In this document: piece by piece, positions 8,494-35,130 of the stretch
Layout of the letters: each line of letters starts with the position of its first letter
How positions within the stretch are numbered: the stretch's first letter is position 1
DNA from: a virus
Reading direction: 5' to 3' (one strand)
DNA: 35,130 nt
IMG/VR virus record: IMGVR_UViG_3300044675_007944
Span: 1 to 35,130 of that record
The notes under the pieces: model-generated
The model's input: only the letters and a program-made list of their open reading frames with translations
Told to the model about the DNA's origin: nothing
Database searches by the model: none
Position numbers and translations under genes: made by a program

Positions 8494-9210
8494 ATGCTGA
8501 AAATTGTCGATTCGTCCGCCATCACCAATCTCACCCTTTTCGGGGCCTCCCGCCAGATCAGCGGCCGGCATTTCCATCAGACCGCGAGGTATGCGATGCG
8601 CCTGTGGGTGTCCTTCGCTCTGCACAAGATCGCCGCCGCCGAGCCGGGGAAGATCCGCGCCGCCCTCAGCCGCGTCGTCACCGGCTACACCGTCATGGCC
8701 ACCGCCTCCATCGGTGCCCGCACCAACCTCAAAAACCGGAAGACCAAGCGCTTCCGCCCCGCCGACCAATGGCGCGGCACCATCGCATCCAAGATCGTCG
8801 GGATGCTGAATTACCGGAACGCCCGCACCGCTCCCCGGTCCGACTTCTACCGCATCGTCGGCAAGTTCGTCCGCGGCCGGATGGCTGGCGCCCGCATCCA
8901 CCGCGCCGGGATGGGCCCCGCCATGGATGCCACCGCCGACGTCGGCCGCGTCCGCCGCGAGGGCCGGAAGCTGCCAAAGTACCGGAAGCCCCCTGGCAGC
9001 TATGAGCAGAAGCTGAAGGCAGACACCGCCGACATCCTTGTGGAAAACTTCGCCTCCGCCTTCGGCTCCCGCGCCAAGGGCATCGTCGGCATCGCCCCTG
9101 AGGCGTTCAATTCGAGCGCCGCCGAAGTCGACCGCCTCCTCGGCCTCTACGCTGAGCGGAACCTCCGCGAGGCCGCCATCGCCACCGGCTTCACCGCCCG
9201 CGCCGCCTGA
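8494..9210 (+). CDS. Hypothetical basic helical protein, neck/tail-completion candidate
   Basis: A 238-residue, very basic protein (many Arg and Lys, for example TNLKNRKTKRFRPAD near 75-90 and RVRREGRKLPKYRKPPGSYE near 150-170), predicted mostly helical. No catalytic motif or membrane segment is visible. It lies between the neck candidate and a tail terminator candidate, a place often filled by a minor head or tail-completion protein of the lambda gpZ or HK97 gp10 type. The ATG at 8494 follows the repeated leader and an A-rich stretch; an open frame further upstream lies within the preceding gene. Confidence 0.5.
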   Translation: MLKIVDSSAITNLTLFGASRQISGRHFHQTARYAMRLWVSFALHKIAAAEPGKIRAALSRVVTGYTVMATASIGARTNLKNRKTKRFRPADQWRGTIASKIVGMLNYRNARTAPRSDFYRIVGKFVRGRMAGARIHRAGMGPAMDATADVGRVRREGRKLPKYRKPPGSYEQKLKADTADILVENFASAFGSRAKGIVGIAPEAFNSSAAEVDRLLGLYAERNLREAAIATGFTARAA

Positions 9211-12894: not shown

Positions 12895-14430
12895 ATGGCC
12901 TCCCGCCGCTCATCCATTGGTGCCCAGCTGCACCTCGATAAAAAAGGCTTCACCGCCGCTCTCGCTTCAGCCAAAGGGGACGCGCAGGCGTGGAAGTCCG
13001 GCGTCGAAGCCATGAAGCTCAAAGGCGGGGCGCTCACCGGTGAAGGCGTCGGTATTGGAAAATGGACGGAACTCTCCAGTAAAATCAACGTCATCGGCGG
13101 AGGGCTGAAAATGGTAGGCTCCTCCGCTCTAGGCATGGGGAAATCCTTGTTCAATGCCGAGGCATCCTTCGAAAACCTCCTCCGCGGCCTCGCCTCCACC
13201 AGTGACGGATCCGAGACCCTCCGCTCCGAACTAGCTGCCCTTCAGGAAGTCGCCAAAATGCCCGGCCTCGGCTTCCGGGAAGCCATCCAAGGAGCCACCG
13301 CCCTCAAGGGGGCCAAACTCTCCGCGCAGGAAGCCCGTGAAGCCCTCGTCGCCTTCGGGAACGCCCTGACAAATGCCGGGAAAGGCAAAGCGGAACTCAA
13401 CGACGTCCTTCTCTCCATCCAGTCCATGATCTCCACCAATCAAGTGGACATGGAAAACCTGAAGGAGATCGCCACTAGGATCCCCGGCTTTCTGGAACTC
13501 GCCGCCCGAGTCCCCAAGGGCAACGCGCTGGACTGGGTCCGCGGCATCATCAAGGAACTCAAAACCCTCCCGCAGGCTGCCGAGTCCGCGCAGGACAAGG
13601 TGGACAACCTCAAGGACGCACTCGACCAAAAGAAGCTTGGCATGACCGGCGGAAAGGCGGCAGGCATCGTGGGAGCCCTGACAAACGAAGCCATGCGCAT
13701 GCTTCAGGGTGGCGACGTTTCTATCGCAGGCCTCACGGAAGCCGTTTCCGGAGAGGATCTCATCAGCAAGTACCAACCCACCGAAGCCGAGCTGGCCCGC
13801 CGCAAAAAAGTCCGTGAGGAACTGGCTGCCGCGGAGCAGGAGCAAGCACGCCTAGCCAAACAAAAAGTCAAAGACGAGGAAGCAGCCGAGCGATTCAAAA
13901 AAGGCACCCCCGTCCGGGAAGCCGCCCAGCAAAACCTCGACGTCCTCCGCCTCCGCGCTGCGGGCCGGAACAAGCAGGCAGACAAACTGGAACAGCAGCA
14001 GGAGGCCGACCGCCGATCCAAAGAACTTCAGGATGCCGGCATGGATCCCGCGCAGGCTGCAGCCATGGCCGGTGAAGAATCCCGACTGAAGAAAGCCATG
14101 GCCTCCGGCCGCCGCGCCACCTACCGCGGCGAATCCTCCACCGGATTCCGTGGCCTCGCCGCCAATCGCGAGCTGGCCGAAAAGAATGACCGCACCGCCC
14201 TGAATGAAGAGTGGGCCTTCCCAGGCCTCGACGGCCTGAAAGCCATGCAGTCCCGAAACACCCTGAAGCCGCAGGCGTCCGCCCGCGCCGCCGGTGCCGC
14301 TAATGCCGCCGCCTCCGACCCTGTTAGCAAAGCCGTCACCTTTTTTGGTCCGGAGATTGTAAAGAAGCTGGATCTCATTGCCGCCAGCCTCACGCCGCTC
14401 GCGCCCCTCCCCGCCGATAAACTCCCATGA
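12895..14430 (+). CDS. Tape measure protein, short
   Basis: A 511-residue, almost wholly helical protein that sets tail length and is ejected at infection. The N-terminus, GAQLHLDKKGFTAALASAKGDAQAWKSGVE, is a typical tape-measure opening. Residues 85-230 carry the conserved tape-measure domain with EASFENLLRGLAS, FREAIQGATALKGAKLSAQEAREAL and ALTNAGKGKAELNDVLLSIQSM. A charged coiled coil fills 290-400. No lysozyme or peptidase domain is present. At about 1.5 angstrom per residue this length suggests a tail of roughly 75 nm or less. It follows the frameshifted chaperone by three bases and overlaps the next gene by four (ATGA). Confidence 0.9.
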   Translation: MASRRSSIGAQLHLDKKGFTAALASAKGDAQAWKSGVEAMKLKGGALTGEGVGIGKWTELSSKINVIGGGLKMVGSSALGMGKSLFNAEASFENLLRGLASTSDGSETLRSELAALQEVAKMPGLGFREAIQGATALKGAKLSAQEAREALVAFGNALTNAGKGKAELNDVLLSIQSMISTNQVDMENLKEIATRIPGFLELAARVPKGNALDWVRGIIKELKTLPQAAESAQDKVDNLKDALDQKKLGMTGGKAAGIVGALTNEAMRMLQGGDVSIAGLTEAVSGEDLISKYQPTEAELARRKKVREELAAAEQEQARLAKQKVKDEEAAERFKKGTPVREAAQQNLDVLRLRAAGRNKQADKLEQQQEADRRSKELQDAGMDPAQAAAMAGEESRLKKAMASGRRATYRGESSTGFRGLAANRELAEKNDRTALNEEWAFPGLDGLKAMQSRNTLKPQASARAAGAANAAASDPVSKAVTFFGPEIVKKLDLIAASLTPLAPLPADKLP

Positions 14431-15230
14431 TCCTCGAAGACTACGATCTCCCCAACATCGGGGCCGGTGGCGGCCGCTGGCAGTACGAGACAGACCCACG
14501 CCTCATCCCGAATCCCCGCGGCTTCGATCAAGTCAGCGCCACCATCTGCTTCCGCGGATCTCTCACCCAGCTCAATGCCCTGTACGATCTCGGTGCGCAA
14601 AACGCCCCCGGCATCGGTTCCGGGCGGGATCTGTACTACACCGGCCCGCAGGTCATCGAGTCCCGCTTCGGCTACCACATTGCCGATTTGATCTGGACCG
14701 GTTACTCCACCCCCGCGCTCAACTTCAACGGGCTGGCCATCCTCCCCGCCGGCGTCCGCGTCAATTCGCTCGACCTCAACTCCAGCCCGGAAGAAGCCCA
14801 GTTCCCTCAGGAACGCGACGGGGTGACGGTCATCCTTCAGCCTCCGTATTCCCCGCCTGGCAACGGCATCCGCCAAGTCAGCACGCAGGCCACCGGCGCC
14901 AGCACACTCACACTCGGCTGGGCCCCGTGGCGCATCCGCCTCCTCGGCCGCCGCTACTCCTACTCTGTCCGCGGGGCCTACATCGCCACCCGCAACTCCA
15001 CCTTCAAACCCCCGGCGCTGAATCTCCCCAACCCGTACACCGCCGACCCCACCGCCATCAACTGGCAGTCCCTCCCGGATCCCCTCGTCACCTACGCCGA
15101 AGGCCTGCCCACTGGTGGCGATGGCTGGTGGTGCGCCACGCATCGCGTCATGAGCGAATTTGTGCTCGGCGACCGGAAGTTGCAGTTTTGGGAAGGGGAG
15201 TACGAGTGGGTCCGCCGATACGGCCCGTGA
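14427..15230 (+). CDS. Distal tail protein candidate
   Basis: A 267-residue beta-rich protein following the tape measure with a 4-base overlap. In siphoviruses the distal tail (Dit-like) or gpM/L-like protein is found here. It contains many Trp/Tyr/Pro turns (GGGRWQYETDPRLIPNPRGF, ALNFNGLAILPAGV, WAPWRIRLLGRRYSYSVRG) and ends in KLQFWEGEYEWVRRYG. No cysteine cluster of the lambda gpL type is visible. The function is inferred from order and beta composition. Confidence 0.5.
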   Translation: MILEDYDLPNIGAGGGRWQYETDPRLIPNPRGFDQVSATICFRGSLTQLNALYDLGAQNAPGIGSGRDLYYTGPQVIESRFGYHIADLIWTGYSTPALNFNGLAILPAGVRVNSLDLNSSPEEAQFPQERDGVTVILQPPYSPPGNGIRQVSTQATGASTLTLGWAPWRIRLLGRRYSYSVRGAYIATRNSTFKPPALNLPNPYTADPTAINWQSLPDPLVTYAEGLPTGGDGWWCATHRVMSEFVLGDRKLQFWEGEYEWVRRYGP

Positions 15231-15254: not shown

Positions 15255-16652
15255 ATGCCCGTCTACCGCCTCCAGACACAAGTCTCCGCCACCGTCACCG
15301 GCGTCGTCACCCCTGACACTGCCGACCTCGACTCCGCCATCACTATCCCCCTCCCGGAAACCGTCCGGCACATTCTGAGCGAGGGGCCTAACTTTGCATC
15401 CGTCGTCTGGAATGGAGCTTCTCCCAGTGAGATCCCCATCGCCATCGGCCGCACCTCCACCACTCAAACCCCCGCCTACAGGAACGGCGTCGTCTCCAAT
15501 CCCGACTTCCGTTCCCTCCGCGCCCTCGCCGTCGTCTGCGAGCCCACCCCCATCGCCATCCCGGCATGGACGCCCGCCAGCGTCACCTCCGTCGCCCTCA
15601 GCTTCTTCAGCGATGTTGGAGCCTCCGGTTCAGTGCAGACCGCCCTCGTGGCCGCCACCCGCGCCCTCGGCACCAGCACCGTCGTCGCCGCAGGGAATTG
15701 GAGTGACAACATCGGTGCCACCGGCTCCACCGGTCTGAATAACGATACCGCCTCGTGGGGCACCGAGATCACCGCCCAGCGATTCCTCCCCGCCCTCGGC
15801 CCGCAGGAACTGGAAGCCGGATCCGTCCTTTCCCTCTGCGCCTCCAAGTTCCCCTACATCACCGAATTCGGCGGCGGATCCCCGCGCCACTACTATGACC
15901 GGACCTTCGGCGTGGGGGCCAATAGCGCCGTCATCGCCCACCTCTTCGTCCTCAGTGCAGGCATGGCTCCGGCTGATGCCGTCCCTACCATCTCCGCCGC
16001 CGCCCTCGCCCCGCAGAATGCCCAGTGGGCATGGATGGAAGGCAGGCTCGCCGCCATCAATAGCCGCTTCCGCATCGCCGTCATCCATCACCCGCCCGCC
16101 ACTAAGTCTGCCGCCGGCGTCCTCCTGCCGGAAGCCGTAGAACTGGCCCGTTCTGGTCACTTCGACCTCATCGTCTGCGGCGGTGCCTACGTCACCGAGG
16201 AAATCCGCATCAACGGCACACCCATCGTCAACGTTAGTAACTGCACCAACTCCGCCGACGTCGGCACCGTCATCCGCGGCACCGCCGCCAACATCGAGCA
16301 GGCCTGGCACGACTTCGAAGCCATGGCCTACCTGCGCGTCACCGCTGACAAGGACACCTTGAACTGGCAATTCCGGGACCACGCCACCAATGCCATCATC
16401 CGCCAGCAGACCGCCTCACCCAAGCCACCGGCTCCCCTCGGCTGCGCCCTCTTCAGTTTGCAGGATTACGACGACGGTGACGATCCCGTCTACCTCGTCC
16501 GCGCCCCCGTCACCCCCGGCTCCAGTCAAGTCTGGCGCTGGCCTGCCTGCCTCCACATCACTGGAGACAACGCCGCCCTCGTCCTCGGGGCCTACTCCGG
16601 CCGCACCGCCCTCCGTGGCTGCACCGTCCGCATGTTCGCCGCCGGATTCTAA
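15255..16652 (+). CDS. Tail protein with degenerate metallophosphoesterase domain
   Basis: A 465-residue protein. Residues 1-105 are beta-rich and may attach it to the tail. Residues 112-345 follow the motif order of calcineurin-like phosphoesterases: SDVG at 119-122, GNWSDN at 147-152 where GDN.Y is usual, LPALGPQE at 178-185 where GNH(D/E) is usual, AQWAWMEGRLAAINSRFRIAVIHHPP with HHPP at 278-281, and LIVCGGAY at 305-312 where GHDH is usual, followed by INGTPIVNVSN. Most metal ligands are therefore replaced, so the domain is probably catalytically dead and could bind a sugar or phosphate-bearing surface polymer. A beta-rich domain closes the protein. The fold call comes from motif order and needs structural checking. 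Confidence 0.6.
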   Translation: MPVYRLQTQVSATVTGVVTPDTADLDSAITIPLPETVRHILSEGPNFASVVWNGASPSEIPIAIGRTSTTQTPAYRNGVVSNPDFRSLRALAVVCEPTPIAIPAWTPASVTSVALSFFSDVGASGSVQTALVAATRALGTSTVVAAGNWSDNIGATGSTGLNNDTASWGTEITAQRFLPALGPQELEAGSVLSLCASKFPYITEFGGGSPRHYYDRTFGVGANSAVIAHLFVLSAGMAPADAVPTISAAALAPQNAQWAWMEGRLAAINSRFRIAVIHHPPATKSAAGVLLPEAVELARSGHFDLIVCGGAYVTEEIRINGTPIVNVSNCTNSADVGTVIRGTAANIEQAWHDFEAMAYLRVTADKDTLNWQFRDHATNAIIRQQTASPKPPAPLGCALFSLQDYDDGDDPVYLVRAPVTPGSSQVWRWPACLHITGDNAALVLGAYSGRTALRGCTVRMFAAGF

Positions 16653-16664
16653 CCCATTCCCACC

Positions 16665-17171
16665 ATGATCATCCCCTCCGCTTCCATCGCCTTCGAATCC
16701 GGTTTCCTCTGGACCCCGCCCACCCCGGGCGTAGCTGGCTCCTTCCAAGGCGTTGCGTCCGACCGTGTCGAGCTGACCGCCTCCAGCGCCATCAAGCTCA
16801 ACCTGCTGCCGACCAGCACCACCACCTATCTGCTGGATAACTTCCCCGCCATCGAGCTGGACAACGTGGCCGTCCAAACTCTCAGCGGATTCGCGGCCTC
16901 GTTTGATAAAATCAAAGGCGTCCACATCCGGGTCTCCGCCTACGATCCACTCAGCGCCTCCTCCGGCACCGTCACCGCCACCCTCACGGATGTTTTCGGA
17001 ACACAAGACTCCGCTCACATCCTCGGCATCGGCGATAACCTCGCCCTCACTCGCCGCGCCGGGATCACCGCCGTCGGCACCACCGCCATCCAGCTGGTCG
17101 CCACCAGCCCGGTCAATCTCCGCGTTGAGCTGATCCTCATTGGCGACGTCGTCTCCGGCCTCGGCACCTGA
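16665..17171 (+). CDS. Hypothetical beta-rich tail protein
   Basis: A 168-residue protein with no recognised domain, rich in Thr, Ser, Val and Ala and predicted as a beta sandwich (LTASSAIKLNLLPTSTTTYLLDNFPAIEL, then VTATLTDVFGTQDSAHILGIGDNLALTR and a final strand LRVELILIGDVV). It lies between the phosphoesterase-like protein and a glycosyltransferase gene. A minor tail or capsid decoration protein would fit. The start is ATG 16665, 12 bases after the previous stop. Confidence 0.6.
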   Translation: MIIPSASIAFESGFLWTPPTPGVAGSFQGVASDRVELTASSAIKLNLLPTSTTTYLLDNFPAIELDNVAVQTLSGFAASFDKIKGVHIRVSAYDPLSASSGTVTATLTDVFGTQDSAHILGIGDNLALTRRAGITAVGTTAIQLVATSPVNLRVELILIGDVVSGLGT

Positions 17172-17175
17172 TGCG

Positions 17176-18078
17176 ATGCACTGGATTGCCTGCCACTTCA
17201 ACCCGCTAGGGTACCAGCGTCCCGTCGATAACCTCCGACGGTTCCTCGACGGGATGCGCGGCCGCCCCGGGACACTGGTGGTGCTGGAACTGGCAGACCG
17301 CGGCGGCATCAACATCCAGACCACCCTCTCCGGCCTCACCACCATCCGGCTCCACATCCCGCAGGACACCCCGCCCTTCTGGTGGAAAGAGGGTCTCCTC
17401 AACTTTGCCATGGAGCACCTCCCGCCCGGGGTGGAGACCGTGGCCGTTCTGGATGCCGACATCGAGTTCCTGGATCCCGACTGGATGGCCCGCGCGGAAG
17501 ATGCCCTTTGGGTCCAGCCCGTCATCCATCCCTGGCATCGCGTCCGGTACACCAACGAGCACGGCATCGATGCCTGCTGCCGCGCCTCCACCGGCTACGG
17601 CGCATCTGTCAGGAGCCTTGATGAGTGGATCCAGTACCATCCCGGCTGCGCATGGGCCTTCCGCACCTCCTTCCTGCGGGAGATTGGCGGGTGGTACGTC
17701 TCCCCCATCAGCCACGGAGACACCCTCATGGCCCTGGCCTGCACCGGCCGACTCGCGGAAGACTCGCCCCGACTCCAGAAACTCTCGCCCGCCCACCGTG
17801 CCGACATCCTCCGCTGGGGTGCCCGCGTCACCTCCGCTGCCGGCGGCACCATTGGCTACTCCCGCGGCGAGATCCGCCACTGGTGGCACGGGCACGAGAG
17901 CCGCCGCCGCTACGCCGACCTCCCCTCACTCATTCAAGACTATGATCCCGCCACCGACCTATCTGCACCCTCTCCCCTCCCGCAATGGGCCCCTCACGCC
18001 ATCGCGGAAAAGCCGGAGATGGTCGCTGCCATCGCCGACTACTTCCGCCACCGGGACGAAGACGGGGCCGCGGATTGA
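17176..18078 (+). CDS. GT-A fold glycosyltransferase, family 2-like
   Basis: A 300-residue cytoplasmic enzyme predicted to move a sugar from a nucleotide-sugar donor. The start is ATG 17176 (HWIACHFNPLGYQRPVDNL). The Rossmann-like first half includes TLVVLELADRGG at about 33-44. The conserved WWKEGLLN lies at 69-76, and the DxD-type metal and nucleotide motif is LDADIEF with Asp93 and Asp95. HPGCAWAFRTSFLREIGGWY (about 155-174) is the acceptor region typical of the family, with HGDTLMALAC after it. There are no membrane segments. Set among tail genes, it may modify the phage tail, the host envelope after infection, or phage DNA. Host-surface modification to block superinfection is the usual interpretation of such genes. 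Substrate unknown. Confidence 0.8.
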   Translation: MHWIACHFNPLGYQRPVDNLRRFLDGMRGRPGTLVVLELADRGGINIQTTLSGLTTIRLHIPQDTPPFWWKEGLLNFAMEHLPPGVETVAVLDADIEFLDPDWMARAEDALWVQPVIHPWHRVRYTNEHGIDACCRASTGYGASVRSLDEWIQYHPGCAWAFRTSFLREIGGWYVSPISHGDTLMALACTGRLAEDSPRLQKLSPAHRADILRWGARVTSAAGGTIGYSRGEIRHWWHGHESRRRYADLPSLIQDYDPATDLSAPSPLPQWAPHAIAEKPEMVAAIADYFRHRDEDGAAD

Positions 18079-18127: not shown

Positions 18128-18541
18128 ATGCCCTTACTCGCTGCCGCTTTCACCATCCCGGTCCTTGCCACCGCCCTTGCTGTTCCCGCCACCGCTTTGG
18201 TCATCGAGCATCCCCAAGCGGCCGACGTCTATGTTGTTCTGGGGGCAATCCTCGCGTCCCTCATTTCACTGATTGAAGCGCGGTACAAAGGGCGCGACTT
18301 CCGGCCAGCCCTCACAAATTTCATCTCCTCCGCACTGGCCGGGGTCTGCGCGCCCAAGATTGGATTTCTTTGTCTCGTCCAAATTGGAACGCTGACACAT
18401 GAGTCACTCATTGTAAGGGCGTGGGAGGCATGGGCCGCCGCCGGTTTTGTGTGCGGACTAAATGGGTGGCTGGTGATCCACAGTGCATCCGCCACCCTCA
18501 AGGGCTGGCTAACCAAAAACACCACGGACACTAACGAATGA
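18128..18541 (+). CDS. Holin-like membrane protein
   Basis: A 137-residue membrane protein with hydrophobic segments at roughly 4-26, 34-50, 62-85 and 100-118, a charged loop EARYKGRDFR at about 51-60 and a polar C-terminus. Size, segment number and nearness to an endolysin candidate fit a holin that would form membrane holes at lysis. The spike gene between them is unusual but overlaps by four bases (ATGA at 18538), so the genes are translated together. The start ATG 18128 follows a 49-base gap; an open frame upstream lies inside the glycosyltransferase gene. Another small phage membrane protein cannot be excluded. Confidence 0.6.
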   Translation: MPLLAAAFTIPVLATALAVPATALVIEHPQAADVYVVLGAILASLISLIEARYKGRDFRPALTNFISSALAGVCAPKIGFLCLVQIGTLTHESLIVRAWEAWAAAGFVCGLNGWLVIHSASATLKGWLTKNTTDTNE

Positions 18542-20388
18542 TCCGCACCGCAAACATTGAAGTCAGCCTGCAACGGCTGAACATCCTCCGACTTGAACAC
18601 CCGCAGGCCAACCCGCTCCGGCTGGTCTGCACGCTCCGCGCCGGGGAAACCCTGCCGTCTGGGCTGACGGTAACGGCAGAGATTCACACGTCGCGCAACG
18701 TCGCCGCAGAGACCACGCCGCTTGCCAGCAGCACCGTCACTGTCGCCGCAGACGCTGCCAGCTTCGACGTCTCATTCACATCCGAACAGCTTAACCAGAC
18801 CGTCACGCCGAACAGCACCCGGGCCTTGTGGCTCGTTGTGTACGGCGTCGGGGCGGAAGACCAGATTTACACCCTATCCGCCGCAGATTTGCTGCTGGGG
18901 TGGCACGCCATCAGCCAAGTCACCGCCGCACCGCCCAACGTTACTCTGTTTGTTGAGAAGGGCGGCGTGGCATGGGCGAGCGGCCGCAACTACGTCTCCG
19001 GCACCGTCGTCACGGTAGGCACCACCGCCTACGTCTGCACCGCCGACAACACCAGCACGACGGACGATGAGCCTGGAGAAGGAATGGAGTGGGAGTCGTT
19101 CTGGGTCGTTCTGAGCGGCGACGGCGGCGGTGCAACCAACCTCGGCGCAACGGTCTCCCCCACGCAGGTCGTTATCAATAGTGATACCGGCGACGATGCC
19201 ACCATTCCGGCGGCAGACGAAACGAACGCCGGCGTCATGCTGCCCGCGCAGGTGACGAAGCTGGCTGGCATCGCCGCCGGGGCGACGAAAAACAACATCA
19301 TCCATCTTTTCTGCCTGTCCGGCCAATCAAACAGTTACGGAGCCGGAGGCAATGCCGCGCAAGCCCCAACCCCAATGGCTGGGGCGTATCAATGGACATC
19401 CTCTGGCGGCGTGCAGGCGTTGACGCTGACGGCTGGCACATCCGGGGGGCAGACCCTCGGCACGTCATGTGCGGCAGCGTTTGCTAACGCCTACATTTCG
19501 GTTACAGGAAGAAAGGTTGGGATTGTTGGAGGAGTAATGATCGACGGAGCGGCGCAATCGTCACTGGCGGACGGCGGAAACGGAAACTTTGACGTTTCGG
19601 GAACACTTCGCGCCACAGTTGTGAGTCGGTATCTGGCGGCAAAGGCCGCGTTTGAAGCAGCAGGTTATCAGGTGGTAATGGCTGGCATTATTTGGCTACA
19701 GGGAGAGCAGGATGCGATTTACATTAATGTGGGGACAATTACTCAAGCGCAGTATCAATCGGCATTCGTGACGATGCTGGCTTATTACCGCACCAACATT
19801 GACGCCAATCTTCCCGTGTGGGTTGTGCGGACGGGGTTGCGAACATCCGCAAGTGATTTTGGATCAGCGGCTATTCGCGGCGGTCAGGAAAACGTCGCGG
19901 CGTCGGACAACAAAACACAAATTGCATATCGTGACACTGATACCTTCAGTTTTCGGTCAATGCTTGCCGACACGGTTCATTACAATCAGGCCGGGCAAAA
20001 TGAAGTTGGCTCTCGAGTCGGGCTTTTTGCGGCAGGAATTGAGCCGCGTGAGCCTCTGGCGTTGAAGGGGTCAACAACAACAATCCCTGTAACAATAGAC
20101 AATCAGGTAGTTCAAACACACAGCGGATACGTCCGGCTTGCATCAGATTCGGCAACCGCATCAAATCGCAGTATCGTGCTTACTGCCCCGCTAAAAACAG
20201 GTCAGATGCTGATGATTGAAAATGTAAATTCCGGGACTTTTATTCAACTCCCAAACGGACAGGCTAACTCATCTGGCGGTGGAGTTTGTTTCCTGAAGGC
20301 TGATTGGAATGCATCAAAACAAAAAGACATGCTCTTTCTTGTCAGCGATGGAGTGAACTGGATCGAAGTGACTCGCCAGGTTCCGTGA
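18538..20388 (+). CDS. Tail spike/fibre with SGNH (sialate O-acetylesterase-type) domain
   Basis: A 616-residue modular receptor-binding protein. Residues 1-130 form a beta-rich N-terminal domain that probably docks to the tail. Residues 143-192 resemble a CBM5/12 carbohydrate-binding module (WASGRNYVSGTVV..GTTAYVC...W.SFWVV). At 228-250 there is a classic fibre stem phrase, NAGVMLPAQVTKLAGIAAGAT. Residues 254-500 are an SGNH/SASA esterase: nucleophile Ser264 in LSGQSNSYG, block WLQGEQDA at 386-393, and Asp478/His481 in ADTVHYNQAG. Residues 505-616 are a beta C-terminal domain. It would remove acetyl groups from a surface polysaccharide during adsorption. DNA from about 19.45 kb on is visibly richer in A/T than the flanks. 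Confidence 0.8.
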   Translation: MIRTANIEVSLQRLNILRLEHPQANPLRLVCTLRAGETLPSGLTVTAEIHTSRNVAAETTPLASSTVTVAADAASFDVSFTSEQLNQTVTPNSTRALWLVVYGVGAEDQIYTLSAADLLLGWHAISQVTAAPPNVTLFVEKGGVAWASGRNYVSGTVVTVGTTAYVCTADNTSTTDDEPGEGMEWESFWVVLSGDGGGATNLGATVSPTQVVINSDTGDDATIPAADETNAGVMLPAQVTKLAGIAAGATKNNIIHLFCLSGQSNSYGAGGNAAQAPTPMAGAYQWTSSGGVQALTLTAGTSGGQTLGTSCAAAFANAYISVTGRKVGIVGGVMIDGAAQSSLADGGNGNFDVSGTLRATVVSRYLAAKAAFEAAGYQVVMAGIIWLQGEQDAIYINVGTITQAQYQSAFVTMLAYYRTNIDANLPVWVVRTGLRTSASDFGSAAIRGGQENVAASDNKTQIAYRDTDTFSFRSMLADTVHYNQAGQNEVGSRVGLFAAGIEPREPLALKGSTTTIPVTIDNQVVQTHSGYVRLASDSATASNRSIVLTAPLKTGQMLMIENVNSGTFIQLPNGQANSSGGGVCFLKADWNASKQKDMLFLVSDGVNWIEVTRQVP

Positions 20389-21571: not shown

Positions 21572-21645
21572 GATGGAGGTGGTGTGATGGTGACCGGGAT
21601 TTAGTGGGGAGATGGGGCGTGATTGCGTGTGGTTTACGGTGGCGG

Positions 21646-21665
21646 ATGTAGCGGGGATGTAGCAG
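21646..21665 (+). repeat. Right pair of arm-type repeats
   Basis: ATGTAGCGG at 21646-21654 and ATGTAGCAG at 21657-21665, 11 bases apart, matching the left pair across the tRNA core. Confidence 0.75.
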
Positions 21666-21673
21666 GTGGGGGG

Positions 21674-22957
21674 ATGGCATCGGTGCATCGGCGAAAAGGG
21701 ACACGGTTCTGGTCGGCGCTTTTCCTCCTGCCTGGAGGGGGGCGCTTTTTTCGGTCCACGGGACTGGAGGATAAGGGGGAGGCGTTGAGGCTGGCGATGG
21801 AATGGGAGAGGCTGGCAAAGGGGCCGGCACCGTCGTCCCTAGAGCAGGCGCGGCGGGTGACGGCGGAGGTGGTGGGGCGATTGATGGGGGCGGAGGTGGT
21901 GGCGCGGGTGACGTGCAAGGCGTATGCGACGCAGTGGCTGGCGGCGCTCAAGGGATCTGTGGCGGACTCCACGCTGACGTTTTACTCCGGTGCCCTGAAG
22001 GCGTGGCTGGAGTGGATGGGGCCGCGGGCGGATGGGCCGCTGGATGGGGTGGAGCTGGGGGATGTGGTGGCGTGGCGGGCGGAGGAACTAAAGCGGGTGA
22101 AGGGAAAGACGGCTGGGCATCGGGTGAAGGTGGTGCGATCAATGTTCCGAGAAGCGGTGGCGCGGGGCTATCTGCGGCGGGATCCCACCGAGGGCCTCCG
22201 GGCGCTGAAGAAGGAGAGGGGCAGTCCGGAGGAGCGGAAGCGCAGGCCATTCACCCGGGAGGAGCTTGGCCGTGTGCTGGCGGTGTGTGATCCGGATTGG
22301 CGGCTGCTGGTGCGGCTGGGCCTGGTGACCGGTCAACGGCTGGGGGATCTGATCCGCATGGATTGGGCCCGGCTGGATCTGAGTGCTGGGCTGTGGGTGC
22401 TGACGACTGGGAAAACATCGAAGCGGCTGGTGGTGCCGCTGCCGGAGGATGTGGTGCGGGATCTGGCGGAGCGGTGCGGGAGTGCTGTGCGGGGGGCGGT
22501 GTTTCCGGAGCTGGTGGCGGAAGTGGAGGCGGCAAAGGGGTATGTGGGGAGCATCTCAAAGGCGTTTGCTCACGCGCTCTGGTTGGCGGGGCTGCGGGCA
22601 ATCAATCCCTATGGCCGGCAGCCGAAGCGTCGTGAGGATGATGCGGGGGCAACGCGGGAACAGCATGAGCTGAGCTTCCATAGCCTGAGGCATACCGCGA
22701 GGACGTGGCTGGAGGAGGCGGGGCAGCCAAAGGCGGTGATTGATGCCTTAATAGGACATAGTGGCGACACTGGCAAAATCTACACCACCGTGGGACTGGA
22801 TGCGCTCCGGGCGGCGGCGGCGGTGCTGGGTGGAAATCCTGTTGCGTCTCCTGCCGGGAATGTGGCAACGTCAATAAATGAGCCGACACCGCAAACCGCA
22901 GGAGGAGACGAACGAGCCGATGCGCCAGCAGCTGGCGGCGATGCGGCGGGCGGCTGA
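21674..22957 (+). CDS. int: Tyrosine recombinase integrase
   Basis: A 427-residue site-specific recombinase that integrates and excises the phage at attP/attB. Start ATG 21674 is preferred over one at 21623, because the earlier start would place Gly-rich residues and the arm repeats in the coding region. Residues 1-60 resemble an arm-binding domain (RKGTRFWSALFL), 75-170 a core-binding SAM-like domain, and 190-385 the catalytic domain: Arg222 in VTGQRLGDL, Lys247 in TTGKTSKRL, His336 and Arg339 in FHSLRHTART, His362 in LIGHSGD, and nucleophile Tyr370 in KIYTTVG. All catalytic residues are present. A low-complexity Ala/Gly tail overlaps the next gene. Codons switch here from C-rich to G-rich wobble. 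Confidence 0.95.
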   Translation: MASVHRRKGTRFWSALFLLPGGGRFFRSTGLEDKGEALRLAMEWERLAKGPAPSSLEQARRVTAEVVGRLMGAEVVARVTCKAYATQWLAALKGSVADSTLTFYSGALKAWLEWMGPRADGPLDGVELGDVVAWRAEELKRVKGKTAGHRVKVVRSMFREAVARGYLRRDPTEGLRALKKERGSPEERKRRPFTREELGRVLAVCDPDWRLLVRLGLVTGQRLGDLIRMDWARLDLSAGLWVLTTGKTSKRLVVPLPEDVVRDLAERCGSAVRGAVFPELVAEVEAAKGYVGSISKAFAHALWLAGLRAINPYGRQPKRREDDAGATREQHELSFHSLRHTARTWLEEAGQPKAVIDALIGHSGDTGKIYTTVGLDALRAAAAVLGGNPVASPAGNVATSINEPTPQTAGGDERADAPAAGGDAAGG

Positions 22958-34866: not shown

Positions 34867-35130
34867 GCCTGCGGACCTCCCCGTTCCCCTGCCCTGTGCG
34901 AGGTTCGCGGACGTGTGCAAGGTGCGCTGTTTTGATCGTTCGGAGGGGGAAGAAGTGCCGCCGTTGGCGGCGGATGATGCGCTGAGGTCTGCCAAGGTGT
35001 GCAGGCGATGGTGATTTTAACCTTCGCAAACCGTTGATTCTAATGGTGTGTTCGTACCTTACACACCTTTCATACCGTCTCTTGAGATATTCCAGAATGG
35101 GGGAGTTTGAGGGTTTCAGCAAAAGGGCCT
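34867..35130 (+). other. Non-coding end region with a 7-bp dyad
   Basis: No convincing gene in these 264 bases. An inverted repeat GGTGTGT (35045-35051) / ACACACC (35061-35067) with a 9-base spacer stands in locally AT-rich DNA and could bind a regulator or mark the late promoter or packaging region ahead of the terminase genes, if the genome is circular. Confidence 0.5.

Follow-up and report, generated by a model that had tools for sequence, protein, structure and literature searches.

Between two tail genes of a phage genome lies an open reading frame whose product carries calcineurin-like phosphoesterase motifs in order, with several of the residues expected to bind metal replaced. The locus raises the question of whether this protein descends from such enzymes, whether it has lost their activity and, if so, what use a tailed phage would make of it. 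An earlier note, made from the letters of the sequence, had proposed a dead enzyme reused to hold a surface polymer; the reading frame and the order of its motifs are confirmed here.

Genome and tail operon

The window, meaning the whole stretch of DNA analysed, comprises 35,130 bases with 64% G+C and derives from a viral collection record. Packaging and structural genes (terminase, portal, major head protein, tape measure-like protein, fibre-like gene) occur in it together with an integrase, which makes this a temperate tailed phage. Another record, L003, bridges window positions 35130 and 1 through its positions 8927–9060 (99.99% identity, about 132 extra bases between the two ends), so the genome appears to be circular or permuted, with the window almost entire. 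The features that frame the locus are as follows.

12895–14430, + strand: tape measure-like protein, upstream (Pfam TMP_3, E 3e-7, below the curated cut-off)
14427–15230, + strand: 267-aa protein, left neighbour, encoded next after the tape measure (73% with L083; 23%, E 3e-10, with L089:4585-5352)
15255–16652, + strand: P0001, the protein under study, here termed pseudo-PAP for its likeness to purple acid phosphatase (PAP), 465 aa (two IMG/VR phages have homologues of 47% identity in the corresponding position)
16665–17171, + strand: 168-aa protein, right neighbour (72% with L083; 34%, E 4e-24, with L089:5368-5877)
18538–20388, + strand: 616-aa fibre-like protein with a SASA esterase-like domain and a CBM_5_12-like match (Pfam SASA E 3e-12; PHROG tail fiber 1e-4)
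21623–22957: tyrosine integrase (Pfam Phage_integrase E 8e-17)

From the tape measure gene (12895), the order runs through the 267-aa gene (14427), the pseudo-PAP gene (15255), the 168-aa gene (16665), a glycosyltransferase-like gene (17176) and a membrane or holin-like gene to the fibre-like gene (18538), all on the + strand. The pseudo-PAP gene is separated from its same-strand neighbours by only 24 and 12 nt, and no promoter- or terminator-like sites were found beside it. Its assignment to the tail module, between the gene that follows the tape measure and the conserved 168-aa gene, stands. A related phage, G004 (terminase 67%), has its versions of the two flanking genes (267 aa and 168 aa in the window) side by side, 15 nt apart, and its 36.8-kb record holds no match to pseudo-PAP. 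Since G004 does without the gene while the neighbouring genes adjoin, pseudo-PAP is accessory to the tail module and dispensable for a functional tail, and by this comparison a clean extra between two tail genes.

The glycosyltransferase-like gene of the same operon (17176–18078) encodes a DxD-type motif, DADIEFLDPDW, and is 62% identical in the IMG/VR phages G007 and G008; G004 lacks a counterpart at that place. Against Pfam Glycos_transf_2 the L083 copy gave only a sub-threshold match (E 0.011), and the PDB returned none. The encoded protein could add sugars to a tail protein or to the host surface.

Homology and predicted fold

Along the protein, a PAP-like core can be told apart from two flanks.

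15255–15584, + strand: N-terminal flank, residues 1–110, without assignment (low-confidence part of the model; 35% identity to the homologue)
15585–16424, + strand: PAP-like core, residues 111–390 (HMM, hhalign, AF2, Foldseek E 3e-11 and Z 23.9 to PAPs; 51% identity)
16425–16649, + strand: C-terminal flank, residues 391–465, without assignment (low-confidence part of the model; 48% identity)

As a query, P0001 matched no family in Pfam, PHROGs, NCBIfam, PDB sequences or GenBank phages, and the PF00149 profile found nothing in the window or in the related phages. Homologues were recovered from G007 and G008, each 47% identical and conserved in position, and a pattern scan for further ligand-less members returned only these two phages again. 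The sole match of P0001 in the genome collection, L002, proved to be due to chance, the common EQAWHDFE stretch belonging to a 592-aa protein that is unrelated and has a P-loop-like motif.

We gathered intact viral PAP-like proteins by a DNA pattern (L097, L105, L111, L112, L118 and L123, plus L117) and built a profile, HMM A4, from intact viral PAP-like proteins only, with all ligand-less sequences excluded. Among 3,332 ORFs, this profile recovered P0001 at 50.4 bits (E 2.9e-14) and its two homologues at E 3.5e-12 and 9.8e-11, while the best non-PAP ORF reached 0.036 and itself shows PPP-type phosphoesterase motifs by eye. Reciprocally, an HMM of the ligand-less family recovered the intact proteins (best E 4e-6), and profile–profile alignment of the two groups with hhalign gave a probability of 96.8% (E 2e-10, 242 columns). 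Residues 111–390 of P0001 are thus homologous, at a level far above chance, to PAP/ACP5-type metallophosphoesterases.

Structure prediction with AF2 from the three ligand-less sequences alone was unusable (pLDDT 33). From the ten-row alignment A3, which includes intact relatives, the core (about residues 110–390) was modelled at pLDDT 63–92 in most 10-residue blocks, with weaker loops, and both flanks fell below 50. A Foldseek search of this model against the PDB placed human, pig and rat PAP on top (E 3e-11) and Plasmodium GAP50 eighth; in VIA-align, pig PAP scored Z 23.9 (271 residues, rmsd 3.7) and GAP50 scored Z 22.5. In a viral structure library, the best matches were an uncharacterised Caudovirales protein and phage G gp352. 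Because the model draws on intact relatives in its alignment, it lends support to a four-layer alpha/beta/beta/alpha PAP fold in the core and is not proof of it; the HMM A4 test is free of this weakness. The phosphoesterase scaffold that the earlier note had read from motifs is borne out by the profile and by a structural match at Z of about 24, and the plain beta-sandwich or fibre that it had named as the refuting outcome was not what the HMM and structural searches returned for the core. Inspection by eye had also suggested that the two flanks together form a domain paralogous to the 168-aa neighbour into which the PAP core was inserted; this was unsupported by hhalign (E 0.44) and by shuffle tests.

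Compared with mammalian PAP/tartrate-resistant acid phosphatase 5 (1ute, 1qhw, 2bq8), P0001 shares the motif order and a predicted core fold of about 270 residues (Z 23.5–23.9, rmsd 3.4–3.7); it differs in its low identity (11–13%), in its extra N- and C-terminal parts, in retaining only two of eight active-site positions and in being encoded within a phage tail operon.

Loss of the active site

Eight active-site positions, namely seven metal ligands and the catalytic histidine, were mapped through the MAFFT alignment A3 and an HMM alignment. Intact proteins carry D, D, Y, N, H, H, H and H at these positions, P0001 has D120, N148, D151, P183, Q184, H278, G310 and Y312, and its homologues have S, N, A, T, Q, H, N and K.

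15612–15614, + strand: motif I ligand D120, retained (S in the homologues)
15696–15707, + strand: motif II, GNWSD, with D replaced by N148 and Y by D151, ligands gone
15801–15806, + strand: motif III, GPQE, with N replaced by P183 and the catalytic H by Q184
16086–16088, + strand: motif IV ligand H278, retained and invariant in all three family members and in all intact rows of A3
16182–16190, + strand: motif V, GGAY, with both histidines gone, now G310 and Y312

P0001 therefore keeps two of the eight (D120 and H278) and its homologues one (H), so that the seven-ligand set of PAP enzymes (D, D, Y, N, H, H, H) is complete in none of them, and the catalytic histidine of GNH(D/E) is glutamine in every member of the family. 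These motif columns uphold the claim that the metal ligands were lost and refine its details: motifs II, III and V are changed as described, but motif I is unaltered in P0001, where D120 of SDVG is kept, and is S in the homologues; of the HHPP stretch said to be intact, the first histidine is the conserved H278, but the second is N in the homologues.

Among nine fully covered viral relatives, six retain all eight positions and three differ in the motif II tyrosine alone, and relatives with partial coverage show few scattered changes at the positions covered. In these alignments, the loss of ligands is specific to the pseudo-PAP clade. P0001 retains 10 of 15 invariant non-ligand columns as against 2 of 8 ligands, a contrast that, with so few columns (Fisher p 0.07–0.09), is only suggestive when taken alone. 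The phage metallophosphoesterase (MPE) Gp48 loses its function when a single residue of motif I, II or V is changed (PMC12287305). Given the lost ligands and this sensitivity to single changes, P0001 is almost certainly a pseudophosphatase from which canonical phosphoesterase activity has gone.

Selection and conserved surfaces

Between G007 and G008 (L083 vs L084), dN/dS was 0.16 for the pseudo-PAP gene and 0.15 for its core, compared with 0.04, 0.03, 0.09 and 0.18 for the neighbours. By this estimate the gene is under purifying selection, which argues against decay. The family has three known members, two of them nearly identical, so that estimates of conservation rest on about two lineages. 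Within P0001, 35%, 51% and 48% of residues are identical to the homologue in the N-terminal flank, core and C-terminal flank, respectively, and two blocks stand out.

15831–15917, + strand: top conserved block, residues 193–221, LSLCASKFPYITEFGGGSPRHYYDRTFGV, 26 of 29 identical against 47% overall; candidate functional surface
16122–16181, + strand: second conserved block, residues 290–309, 19 of 20 identical

The loops that once carried ligands are poorly matched between homologues (2 of 8 positions in motif I, 5 of 12 in motif IV and 4 of 10 in motif V). Near-identity of the blocks alongside divergence of these loops indicates that selection preserves the scaffold and particular surfaces and that no common pocket has been kept.

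Intact relatives and known systems

Intact PAP-like domains recur in the virion modules of other phages, which runs counter to the supposed rarity of this fold in phage tails. In G020, an intact PAP-like gene lies downstream of the major head protein, between PHROG matches to tail-fibre assembly and virion structural proteins, and the layouts of G016, G018 and G019 resemble it, as judged by gene order; kin of the G020 protein show Big_2 and VWA domains in Pfam as well. In the full ORFs of L097, L112 and L117, which belong to a virion gene cluster, an intact PAP-like domain is joined to Big_2 and von Willebrand A domains, as matched by Pfam in L097 and L112, and the N-terminal part has no assignment. 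PHROG 1696, called major tail protein, matches the domain region of L105. As a separate observation, L136:7950-9548 encodes an intact PAP-like domain after a long unassigned N-terminal part, in a gene order that resembles a virion module. PAP-like genes have also been published for phage Rowlf (gp26) and for cluster EK phages, with their role stated to be unknown and their presence varying among EK1 members (PMC12352085, PMC13014141).

With these proteins (Rowlf gp26, those of EK phages, L097, L112, L117, L118 and L136), P0001 shares a PAP-like domain in tailed phages. Variable presence among close relatives is common to the EK1 genes and pseudo-PAP, and location in virion modules is common to pseudo-PAP and L097, L112, L117, L118 and L136, which, unlike P0001, keep their metal ligands; all belong to phage lineages different from that of the window. 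Bacillus phage G gp352 (L175:4213-6813), annotated as a metallophosphoesterase, is likewise a phage protein of PAP fold, but is 866 aa long and keeps most ligands; the HMM alignment places N in its catalytic histidine column (GNN), making it possibly another altered phage member. Gp48 of mycobacteriophage A10ZJ24 shares with P0001 the calcineurin-like phosphoesterase superfamily and a phage origin, but is an early intracellular protein that is enzymatically active and carries all five motifs (PMC12287305). Outside phages, the glideosome anchor GAP50 of Plasmodium (3tgh) has the PAP fold in common with P0001 and serves as a membrane anchor, with acid phosphatase activity reported too (review PMC8949495); as a eukaryotic membrane protein, it offers a parallel in re-use, without close kinship. 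Searches of the open-access literature turned up no account of a phage tail with a dead PAP or MPE. The PAP domain in phages is thus already known, and the new part is the ligand-less clade in a tail operon.

A probable binding role for the pseudophosphatase

Computation gives PAP homology, a predicted fold, loss of the metal site, purifying selection, a position in the tail operon and accessory status, and the explanation that fits these best overall, and that we consider probable, is a pseudophosphatase that would serve as an accessory virion protein, acting by binding rather than hydrolysis. The protein would descend from intact PAP-like domains in the virion proteins of other phages and would be made along with the tail genes, probably taking its place at or near the tail tip. 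There its partner may be another tail protein or a molecule on the cell surface, contacted through the face that blocks 193–221 and 290–309 form. More specifically, though tentatively, the dead PAP domain may be a lectin-like adaptor within the tail structure, recognising a phosphorylated polymer on the host surface, or docking another tail protein, without cutting it.

How far such binding extends to the receptor can be judged against the fibre-like gene at 18538–20388. Its N-terminus is conserved (71% over 242 aa with G004) and its C-terminus has been exchanged, being SASA esterase-like in the window, formed of collagen repeats in G007 and G008, and unrelated in G004. Because a conserved N-terminus with an exchanged C-terminus is the usual receptor-binding pattern, the product of this gene is predicted to be a better receptor-binding candidate than pseudo-PAP. 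Receptor or polymer binding by pseudo-PAP itself would be plausible, since the gene belongs to the tail module, its intact relatives adjoin tail-fibre-like genes in another phage, and it diverges beyond most of its neighbours (47% against 71–74% for the flanking tail genes). That its old substrate pocket grips a phosphorylated surface polymer uncut, making it a receptor- or polymer-binding protein, is nevertheless doubtful, because the divergent loops of motifs I, IV and V leave no common pocket, and because orthologues of pseudo-PAP occur in phages with different fibre ends, the exchangeable C-terminus belonging to the fibre-like protein. For these reasons, and because the gene is absent from the syntenic G004, we somewhat favour a scaffold or adaptor function over that of the main receptor-binding protein, and the polymer-holding design put forward in the earlier note loses ground to the C-terminus encoded at 18538–20388.

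The gene might instead be a moron-like, non-virion passenger of the tail operon, encoding an intracellular pseudophosphatase with a host-directed task such as superinfection exclusion or counter-defence. Its presence or absence at one fixed site would suit such a gene, as would the glycosyltransferase-like gene two genes downstream, likewise without a counterpart at its place in G004, and host-directed intracellular phage MPEs do exist (Gp48, PMC12287305). We regard this as unlikely, given that no promoter- or terminator-like sites were found around a gene packed tightly among tail genes on the same strand, and that the intact relatives are found in virion modules, in some cases as fusions with structural-type domains.

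Continued hydrolysis by P0001 at a rearranged or single-metal site is very improbable: one metal could in principle be held by D120, N148, D151 and H278, but the homologues have S, N, A and H there, so such a site is not conserved, and both GHxH histidines and the catalytic histidine are gone in all three members. Least credible, and close to negligible, is a pseudogene in decay, left from a formerly active tail phosphatase, which the lost catalytic residues and faster divergence than the neighbours might suggest, but which the frame intact in three phages, the low dN/dS of gene and core and the blocks of 90–95% identity contradict.

In one phage lineage, a PAP-type domain that phages carry in active-looking form in virion modules has shed its metal site while its scaffold is still selected, which separates binding or scaffold roles from catalysis. 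Proteins such as pseudo-PAP go undetected by standard family libraries, and the ligand-less lineage makes the function of phage PAP-like proteins testable.
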